Made by a program: the position numbers and the translations under genes
Part shown: piece after piece, positions 2,771 to 22,142 of the stretch
How the letters are laid out: every line of letters starts with the position of its first letter
How positions within the stretch are numbered: position 1 is the stretch's first letter
Assembly (NCBI GenBank): GCA_002783105.1
Contig: PFJN01000036.1
Location: forward strand, 1 to 37,899
Direction of reading: 5' to 3'
DNA from: Candidatus Pacebacteria bacterium CG_4_10_14_3_um_filter_34_15
GTDB lineage: Bacteria > Patescibacteriota > Microgenomatia > UBA1400 > PJMF01
DNA length: 37,899 nucleotides
Notes under the pieces: generated by a model
What the model was told of the DNA's origin: nothing
Seen by the model: only the letters and a program-made list of their open reading frames with translations
Databases searched by the model: none

Positions 2771-2950
2771 CAGAAAATTAAAAACCTAACCCCAGTTCCT
2801 CGGAATTGGGTATGGTCGCAAAAACCACGAAAGTAAAAACCCCTCGCTTGGGGAAGACTTTCGTGGTTATGTTGGGAAACCTTCATAGGGAGCAATCCCG
2901 ATAACTCAGGCGAGGGCTTTTTGTTGTAAAGCCCTTGCAGAAAGGGCTAC
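2771..2950 (+). ncRNA. Candidate structured RNA / 5' leader with potential pseudoknot
   Basis: Hairpin CCCAGTTC-CTCG-GAATTGGG (2791-2810, one G-U); perfect 12-bp stem AACCACGAAAGT/ACTTTCGTGGTT (2823-2834/2857-2868); loop segment CCCTCGCTT (2841-2849) complementary to AGGCGAGGG (2908-2916); GGGA-GCAA-TCCC GNRA hairpin (2888-2899); CTTTTT at 2917-2922; hairpin around AGCCCTT..AAGGGCT just before the ATG at 2951. Confidence 0.5.
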
Positions 2951-5631: not shown

Positions 5632-7209
5632 ATGAAAAATAAAAAAGAAGAAATCAATATTAACCGAGCTTGCCTATATTTAAGGTTCAGTGACCCCAAG
5701 CAAGTGGGTGGCACCTCAATTGCAGTTCAAGAGAAATCATGCAAAGACTATTGTAAGGCACATGACTGGAAAACTGTGTTGGTTGAAAAATACGAAGCGG
5801 TATCAGCCAAAACGACAAATACCAAGCGTGTTGCAGAGTTGGTCGAATTTTGTAAAAGAAACAAAGGCAAGTTTGAGGTCTTGGTAGTGTATAAGCTGGA
5901 CAGGTTTGCTAGGGACCAGCATATGCACCACTACATGAGGGCAGAGCTGATGAAATTAGGAATTTTATTACGTTCAGCAACCGAATCAATTGATGAGAGC
6001 GCCCAAGGACAATTAAACGAAGGTATACTTGCCGCACTGGCTCAATTTGATAATGCTGTCAAATCCGAGAGAGTAAAAGCCGCTCTCTGGCGCAGAGTTG
6101 AAGAAGGCATGTGGCCGTGGCATCCGCCACTTGGCTATATGTCGATTCGCCAGAAAGATGAAAAAGTGAAAGCTCACGTACCTGACCCAGGTCTTGAGCA
6201 AGCAATTGTTGACCTCTTCACGTCCTTTTCGACTGGCACAGTTTCACAGTTTGACTTATCAAAGGAATATGCCAAGAAAAAGTTGAAAAACTACAAAGAC
6301 AGAACCATCAAATTTTCGCCACAGTCGGTCAATAATATCCTTAATAACCGCTACTATATGGGAATATTGGTACATGAAGACGGCAGACACATTCAGGGCA
6401 AGCACAAAGCAATCATTAAGCCAAGTTTGTTCGAAAAGTGCCAATACATCCTACACAAAAAGTCTAATGGCACTGGTGGTGGTCAAAGATTGCATGATAA
6501 TCCAGAGTTTCCCTTAAAACCCACTTTGCGTTGCGCGGTGTGTAAAGAACCTTTAACGGCACAGTTTTCTAATTCTGCCAGAGGTAAGAAAAATCCTCAC
6601 TACTTCTGTAAGAACAATAAATGCAAACTGTTTCGCAAAACCTATAGACGGTCAAAACTAGAAAACGAGTTTGGCATCTACTTGAGGCAAATTAAACCAA
6701 CTCAAGAGTTTGTAAAGCGGTTCCAGGAAAGATTCCTGGACCGCTACCAGGCTCGTGAGCGTGACCTTAAAGGCGAATACTTGAGAAAGTTAGGAGATGT
6801 CCAAAAACTGGAAAAAGAGCTTAAATTTGTTGTTGACCAAGGAAAACAAGGAGTCTTGAAAGGTGATACTTTCAAAAGTGCTATTGAAGAAGCTGAATCA
6901 AAGCTCAGTCTAGCTAAATTATCACTAAGAGAAACACATGGAGAAGAGATTGACGTTCAGCTTCTGTTGGCCTATGCAGAGAGTTTTATTCAAACCATTG
7001 AAAAGGTTTGGTATGACGCACCATTTGAGATTAAGAAGAAAATTCAGAATTTTGTCTTGCCTGGAGGAGTTTATATTACAAAGACCAGAGGAGAGTATTT
7101 CTTTTCAAACCCTCAATTAGGCGGATTGTTCCAACTAATTAATGATTTTGGTGCTGATGATTCAACTGTTGTGACCCCACAGAGAATCGAACTCTGGCTG
7201 CCAGGATGA
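5632..7209 (+). CDS. Large serine recombinase / site-specific integrase
   Basis: Resolvase domain (ACLYLRFSDPKQVGGTSIAVQEKSC..VVYKLDRFARD), recombinase domain, zinc ribbon (CAVCKEPL..YFCKNNKCK), C-terminal coiled coil. Stop codon lies inside the antisense tRNA-Glu gene. Confidence 0.93.
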   Translation: MKNKKEEININRACLYLRFSDPKQVGGTSIAVQEKSCKDYCKAHDWKTVLVEKYEAVSAKTTNTKRVAELVEFCKRNKGKFEVLVVYKLDRFARDQHMHHYMRAELMKLGILLRSATESIDESAQGQLNEGILAALAQFDNAVKSERVKAALWRRVEEGMWPWHPPLGYMSIRQKDEKVKAHVPDPGLEQAIVDLFTSFSTGTVSQFDLSKEYAKKKLKNYKDRTIKFSPQSVNNILNNRYYMGILVHEDGRHIQGKHKAIIKPSLFEKCQYILHKKSNGTGGGQRLHDNPEFPLKPTLRCAVCKEPLTAQFSNSARGKKNPHYFCKNNKCKLFRKTYRRSKLENEFGIYLRQIKPTQEFVKRFQERFLDRYQARERDLKGEYLRKLGDVQKLEKELKFVVDQGKQGVLKGDTFKSAIEEAESKLSLAKLSLRETHGEEIDVQLLLAYAESFIQTIEKVWYDAPFEIKKKIQNFVLPGGVYITKTRGEYFFSNPQLGGLFQLINDFGADDSTVVTPQRIELWLPG

Positions 7210-7243
7210 GAACCTGGTGTCCTAACCGCTAGACGATGGGGCC
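7172..7243 (-). tRNA. tRNA-Glu (anticodon CTC)
   Basis: Minus strand GGCCCCATCGTCTAGCGGTTAGGACACCAGGTTCTCATCCTGGCAGCCAGAGTTCGATTCTCTGTGGGGTCA: acceptor GGCCCCA/TGGGGTC, anticodon stem CCAGG/CCTGG, loop TTCTCAT, T-loop TTCGATT. CCA not encoded. Confidence 0.95.
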
Positions 7244-21377: not shown

Positions 21378-21393
21378 TTAAACTTATTTTTAA

Positions 21394-21422
21394 TTGACTA
21401 TCTGTTGTTTACAATATATAAT
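21394..21422 (+). promoter_or_regulatory. Near-consensus sigma70 promoter TTGACT-N17-TATAAT
   Basis: TTGACT 21394-21399, 17-nt spacer, TATAAT 21417-21422; points at the hairpins below with no ORF downstream on this strand. Confidence 0.85.
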
Positions 21423-21428
21423 ATCTTT

Positions 21429-21500
21429 AATCAACCGTCACACTTCGGTGAGATGGTTTACCGTTCGAGAGCTCCACTTAGGTGTAGCTCTCATTTTTTT
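21429..21500 (+). ncRNA. Candidate orphan sRNA (~70 nt)
   Basis: Hairpin AACCGTC-A-CAC-UUCG-GUG-A-GAUGGUU (21433-21458), then GAGAGCT..CAC-TTAG-GTG..AGCTCTC (21467-21492) followed by ATTTTTTT. Confidence 0.72.
21467..21500 (+). terminator. Intrinsic terminator of the candidate sRNA
   Basis: 7-bp stem plus inner 3 bp, followed by a 7-T tract (21494-21500). Confidence 0.8.
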
Positions 21501-22142
21501 ACTTTGTCTTTAATATTTAATATATTAGACAAATAATATCTGTTAACTCTTTCTAATTGCTTCAATCTTATAGATAAATAGTTATTATATTTTGTGAATG
21601 GTGTAGCAAATACGGTAATATAGGCATATTTGTTTTTTCTCAACATATTCTCAATCATTTCTGAAAAATCACCATCGCAAGAAAAAATAATAATATGAAA
21701 TGGTTTTTCTACATTTAACAAATCGCCTAATAATTCACTGCATAAATATACGTCAACATTTGATTTAAGTGTTTTTGATTTTTTTAAAATCTCAACTTTG
21801 TTTTTCTTATCACAACCTGAACATTTAAATGATCTATACTTAGCATAGTTAGAATATGATTTTCTTACAAGAGTATGCATCTCATAGCCAGTTTTTTTCT
21901 AGAATTTTAAATTGTTCTAAAGTTCTTGTATCTTTGTTATCTGCTCCTTCAAAATACTTCACGGTTTTAAGTTTTTTGTATGTTATTCTCAGATATTTAT
22001 ACAGTTTGATAAAATCTAATTTTATTCCTGTAGATTTAAGTGCATTTTTGATGTTGCTAGAGTCTAAGTACACGTAAGTATCAAGGTTTTTTAAAATTAT
22101 TTTTTTCATAGATAAATTATTAAGATGATTTGATTTTATCAA
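21491..22142 (-). pseudogene. NYN (LabA-like PIN) domain protein split by a frameshift
   Basis: ORFs 21882-22142 (VYLDSSNIKNALKSTGIKLDFIKLYKYLR..) and 21491-21880 (..KSNVDVYLCSELLGDLL..IIIFSCDGDFSEMIENML) together make one NYN protein; frame change (+1) next to an A7 run (21892-21898). Confidence 0.75.

Follow-up and report, generated by a model that had tools for sequence, protein, structure and literature searches.

A small RNA facing a NYN-fold ribonuclease gene as a predicted two-gene module in Patescibacteria

The window, as we call the whole stretch of DNA analysed here, is a 37.9-kb contig (37,899 nucleotides) belonging to a 1.0-Mb genome. It carries a promoter followed by two hairpins and then only by a gene that runs toward them, an arrangement described in an earlier note as an orphan small RNA. 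The question is what such a short transcript would serve for, and whether the gene that it faces is its partner. The features concerned are the following.

21394..21422, plus strand: sigma70-type promoter of the RNA (-35 TTGACT at 21394-21399, 17-nt spacer, -10 TATAAT at 21417-21422)
about 21429..21500, plus strand: predicted small RNA (inferred start; covariance-model match 21423-21500)
21433..21458, plus strand: hairpin 1, a covarying 7-bp stem with a 1x1 mismatch and the cap CAC-UUCG-GUG
21459..21466, plus strand: single-stranded linker UACCGUUC, its core CGUUC invariant in 5/5 genomes
21467..21500, plus strand: hairpin 2 with T7 tract, an intrinsic terminator overlapping the NYN stop codon
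21491..22109, minus strand: NYN-fold RNase gene, frameshifted, in pieces 22109..~21891 and 21880..21491
21387..22113, no strand assigned: whole RNA and NYN module, similar to a stretch of genome G028 and missing from the equivalent site in G001

The promoter, both hairpins and the T7 terminator lie where they had been described. The hairpin 2 stem-loop (21467-21492, loop UUAG) precedes the T7 tract (21494-21500), and the two hairpins have a common layout of 7 bp, 1x1 mismatch, CAC/GUG and a 4-nt loop. The RNA folds with a minimum free energy of -27.0 kcal/mol against -12.9 +/- 2.8 in shuffled sequences (z -5.1; 0/200 shuffles). The promoter, scored against the E. coli consensus in Patescibacteria hosts, is indeed near-consensus, with 11 of 12 positions, and ranks first among 12 promoter-like sites within 3 kb, a number of sites not above chance expectation. 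The consensus match by itself is little proof, and support for a functional promoter comes from its conservation in relatives (see below). No plus-strand ORF of at least 60 amino acids is found downstream, in agreement with the view that no ORF uses this promoter and that the unit is a self-contained predicted RNA of ~70 nt with its own promoter and terminator. A Rfam scan matched the RNA to no known family (best sub-threshold match E=1), the models of tmRNA, 6S, SRP and RNase P RNA included, as the earlier note had anticipated. Elsewhere in the window, positions 2783-2899 (plus strand) match the LOOT RNA (RF03000, 68.1 bits for a threshold of 46.4). A serine-recombinase-like ORF (5632-7209) follows about 2.7 kb downstream and overlaps a tRNA (7172-7243, minus strand); this region looks like an integrated element.

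Comparison with other genomes, mostly MAGs and, for the named relatives, MAGs of Patescibacteria/Paceibacterota, leads to the partner. The RNA is present in one of 55 related genomes, G028, of another genus, with 87% identity, and there it lies tail-to-tail with an intact NYN gene, positioned as in the window and preceded by an equivalent promoter. A deeper search, with the G028 protein as query against 381 genomes of the phylum, yielded four full-length NYN relatives outside the window's class, with about 45-61% amino acid identity. Three of them (G682, G696 and G442) have the RNA at the equivalent place, each with a TTGAxT-17-TATAxT promoter; in the fourth, G694, the RNA has diverged and retains one capped hairpin. 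The tail-to-tail pair is thus found in five genomes including the window, three of these outside its class, and the closest NYN relatives accompanied by the RNA have 46-81% amino acid identity. A covariance model of this family (R1) gives strong matches, of 98-103 bits, only in genomes with this NYN gene; these are its training sequences, so that the search establishes absence elsewhere and not new members. The next-best match has 28 bits, and matches at or below this score were taken as chance, none of them adjoining a NYN gene. The word "orphan" does not hold: the RNA and the convergent NYN gene together make up a two-gene module.

The five RNAs that form the family align gap-free. The covariance search in relatives and the covariation analysis proposed in the earlier note both gave positive results, the promoter and hairpins being conserved and five base pairs of hairpin 1 showing compensatory change among the five sequences. 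In hairpins 1 and 2 together 99% of cells are paired; 1/500 shuffles equalled this value and no slid register did. There is almost no variation in hairpin 2 and in the core of the linker, the single-stranded linker is the most conserved part, and ~10 nt at the 5' end vary. The caps CAC-UUNG-GUG of both hairpins vary only at the third loop base, the C(UUCG)G tetraloop remarked in hairpin 1 of the window being replaced by UUUG or UUAG in relatives. Between the window and G028, 45 consecutive nucleotides of the RNA are identical, while the NYN genes are saturated at synonymous sites (pS 0.78) with low nonsynonymous change (dN 0.11). These figures indicate an old pair, with strong past selection on both parts. 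Fixed caps present twice per RNA, one of them on a covarying stem, are the pattern of a protein-binding RNA and point to recognition in trans.

The partner is a soluble NYN-fold protein of ~205 amino acids. In G028 it is intact (205 residues), with 81% amino acid identity to the broken copy of the window, and scores 28.9 bits against Pfam NYN (PF01936; cut-off 24.2), the broken copy alone reaching 23.3. Its fold gives structural matches to 2qip and to the NYN domain of MARF1, and the acidic residues D16, D119, D145 and D147 are invariant across six relatives. The earlier note was right that the RNA overlaps the 3' end of a NYN-RNase gene. In the window, however, the reading frame of this gene is interrupted by a stretch of 7 A (T on the plus strand, 21892-21898), one more than the 6 A of the intact homologue. 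This frameshift may be a real mutation or else an assembly error. A programmed -1 frameshift at the run was rejected since the shift required is +1/-2, which a canonical slip does not fit. The window thus combines a nuclease frame broken by one nucleotide with an intact RNA, the order expected if the RNA is protective.

The RNA and NYN unit is mobile-looking, as judged from empty sites, differing neighbours and a copy in a viral contig. Similarity between the window and G028 covers ~720 bp; it begins shortly ahead of the -35 box and ends a little upstream of the NYN start codon. In the window the module neighbours cca/recJ-like genes, in G028 it lies next to serS and a gene whose sequence indicates an HD-type protein; empty sites are found at cca/recJ in G001 and, for the G028 insertion, in G074 and G008. 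A related module lies in a predicted viral contig, flanked by portal-like and terminase-like ORFs, and one copy adjoins a HsdM-like gene (assigned by sequence). The window RNA found no match in a phage collection, nor the G028 NYN protein in phage and plasmid collections. Two exact matches of an 18-mer pattern in viral contigs were dismissed as chance, lying in GC-rich surroundings without hairpins, and two further patterns gave zero matches there. NYN matches in rhizobial plasmids come without a clear homologous RNA; downstream of the NYN gene (1192-1809) of a Bradyrhizobium plasmid locus (L360) a sigma54-like TGGCACGACTTATGCT and a strong GC-rich terminator face NYN, and may be unrelated. 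An integron attC-like cassette end was considered by eye and set aside, as the expected core sites were not seen.

The arrangement extends well beyond this family. Distant NYN homologues of the class (24-44% amino acid identity) gave the first sign, as they also face promoter-RNA-terminator units. In a class sample of 142 PF01936 genes with their flanks, a first detector (promoter of at least 10/12 and a terminator at the NYN stop) was positive at 26/141 NYN genes and at 1/549 control genes, this single one being NYN-like by sequence. The RNA-unit label clusters on the NYN protein tree, with 19 changes against a mean of 37.3 in shuffles (0/500). A second detector gave high scores at 37/66 NYN genes of RNA-positive clades versus 0/75 in other clades, and at 8/549 controls, half of them NYN genes; at low promoter scores it is permissive (119/549 controls at 8 or more), and only its high-score and the model-based figures are quotable. 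Sequence inspection places a unit beside about 60 of the 66 genes of the RNA-positive clades. These clades were delimited after the labels had been seen, hence the importance of a blind test, in which a model of RNA family B was run against 156 genomes. Of its 16 matches at 39 bits or more, 14 face a NYN ORF and two are solo; leaving out the four training loci, 10/12 face one. In the Patescibacteria sampled, a promoter-RNA-terminator unit lies opposite about half of the NYN genes, those of particular clades, and many NYN clades of the same genomes have no RNA partner.

Covariation is also found in these other families, with six compensated pairs in family B and seven in family F, whose covariation score was reached in 0/500 shuffles. 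Families A, B and C, all in one NYN clade, have the common 5' start AUCAC, and the RNA and the NYN protein seem to diversify together. Locus L235 (also L097) carries two different NYN-RNA modules side by side, with RNA families B and F; an apparent tandem RNA in L235 and an apparent solo RNA in L351 were discarded, both loci having their own NYN genes. Near position 1501 of L358 a family-B RNA stands alone, without a NYN gene, close to ORFs that resemble a HEPN-nucleotidyltransferase pair (by sequence). In L161 a gene (853-1308 of the reverse complement) for a 151-residue protein without Pfam match is likewise opposed by a strong promoter (TTGACA-TATATT) and a hairpin RNA, CUGUUAGCC..AAACAGGC; this protein may be a third kind to have a convergent RNA.

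How might the two halves work together? We privilege, at about even confidence, the hypothesis that the RNA acts in trans to bind and restrain the NYN RNase in the manner of a type III antitoxin. It would be the noncoding half of a small mobile module, transcribed constitutively from its own promoter, the other half being the tail-to-tail endoribonuclease gene. Binding to the enzyme would occur at the two similar hairpin caps, each a CAC-UUNG-GUG on top of a 1x1 mismatch, and the bound RNA would inhibit a presumably toxic or defensive RNase, making it an RNA antitoxin with its own promoter. Both parts, their linkage, the covariation, the invariant caps, the changing insertion sites and the conserved active-site residues are read from the sequences. 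Patchy spread, changing insertion sites, the viral-contig module and the broken nuclease beside an intact RNA are circumstantial evidence that fits a toxin with an RNA antitoxin. The two solo RNAs without nuclease fit an antitoxin too, but also other roles. Against the antitoxin reading, the layout is unlike that of known type III loci (convergent, with a separate promoter and another toxin fold). Against one shared binding mode, length and structure of the predicted RNA families change from one NYN clade to another.

The same patchy spread, together with the copy in the predicted viral contig and the one beside the HsdM-like gene, would suit an RNA that serves a NYN-based anti-phage effector as scaffold, sensor or activating cofactor, with the complex of RNA and protein being the active form or triggered by infection. 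PADLOC matches the NYN proteins to its defence models NYN and HEC-09, but weakly and partially, and the window keeps its RNA despite the broken nuclease frame; we regard this role as unlikely, if worth keeping in mind. The earlier note had put the emphasis on the antisense 3' ends of the two transcripts. The NYN stop codon (21491-21493, minus strand) does overlap hairpin 2, and with the convergent layout and the many loci where the RNA terminator falls inside the NYN ORF this could speak for cis-antisense control, in which NYN expression would be held down by transcription from the small RNA promoter or by pairing of the RNA with the 3' end of the NYN mRNA (type I-like or by transcriptional interference). 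This emphasis is misleading, because conservation of the caps and linker points to recognition in trans. The overlap in the window is about 10 nt. A perfect complement in cis could do without sequence conservation, yet the caps and linker are kept across classes and stem 1 covaries. Pairing of the linker or leader with the NYN start region is also not consistently better than in shuffles, and we find such control improbable.

It is quite improbable, in our judgement, that the NYN enzyme matures or degrades a small RNA acting on other cell transcripts. NYN proteins are RNases and the conserved CGUUC linker could serve as a seed, but the defined promoter and terminator leave no obvious need for processing, no target was found, and a mobile pair would need targets in every host. 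Small nucleases with an adjacent ncRNA are known from the TnpB and IscB systems, and the RNA could by analogy guide the nuclease to its targets through base pairing. Here the linker is the most conserved part and no variable guide segment is seen, only the ~10 nt at the 5' end varying, which makes a guide very improbable. We give hardly any credit to a functionless promoter with a bidirectional terminator: the end of the NYN-strand transcript could form the same hairpin, but hairpin 2 has no T tract after it on that strand, conservation of hairpin 1 and the linker extends across classes, and promoters are found again in one clade after another. Caps that stay constant on a covarying stem favour protein binding, since cis-antisense pairing, termination or guiding would not need them.

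The apparent orphan small RNA becomes evidence that a protein-RNA module is widespread in a phylum about whose regulatory RNAs and defence biology little is known. The antitoxin proposal is testable, since it specifies the partner gene, the catalytic residues and a likely recognition motif, the two fixed hairpin caps. With somewhat less than even confidence, we extend it to a large class of RNA-controlled NYN ribonuclease modules, so far undescribed, in Patescibacteria, comprising some eight RNA families that are each linked to a NYN clade of their own. Together with the DUF3800-RNA pairs, they would form one design (a small nuclease and a convergent, trans-acting structured RNA) and a new type of toxin-antitoxin whose RNA antitoxin is independently transcribed.

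Among the closest known systems are the DUF3800 RNAs. Where PMC10910872 cites Weinberg et al. 2017, DUF3800 is given as a RNase H fold with associated ncRNAs. Like the NYN RNAs, these are short and structured, have their own sigma70-like promoter, lie tail-to-tail with a small nuclease-fold gene, and are patchily spread in the same genomes; most of 29 DUF3800 genes inspected show a promoter-RNA-terminator unit. One DUF3800 gene adjoins a group I intron match (RF00028, 59 bits; L281, 1097-1281, minus strand). In contrast, the partner of the NYN RNA is a NYN/PIN-like RNase and not a RNase H-fold DUF3800 protein, and the NYN RNA sequences fit no Rfam model. No NYN-linked RNA of 39 NYN-centred loci matched Rfam, nor any the covariance models DUF3800-I to -XI at gathering score. 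The sRNA-type Rfam matches in NYN-centred and DUF3800 loci are DUF3800-II and -IX, tail-to-tail with DUF3800-type genes, and genome G000, where the neighbour of the RNA is NYN, has no DUF3800 match. A search covering part of the literature found no report on NYN-associated RNAs. With NYN/LabA-like RNases (PF01936; solved structures 2qip and MARF1 NYN) the partner protein has domain, fold and acidic residues in common, though many NYN clades have no RNA partner. Type I toxin-antitoxins also have an RNA transcribed against the partner gene with a 3' overlap, but their toxin is a small hydrophobic peptide and not a ~205-residue NYN-fold enzyme, and here the overlap is short and the sequence conservation of trans type. 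Type III systems (ToxIN, CptIN, TenpIN) likewise join an endoribonuclease to a small structured RNA, and each of the two like hairpins of the window RNA could bind a protomer. Their RNA repeats lie upstream of the toxin, on the same strand and in one operon, and the toxin belongs to the ToxN/AbiQ family with a ToxN-like fold, whereas here the RNA is convergent, has a separate promoter and faces a protein of Pfam NYN and NYN fold. The comparison suggests a broader design of nuclease and convergent RNA, of which the DUF3800 RNAs, described in 2017, would be one branch.
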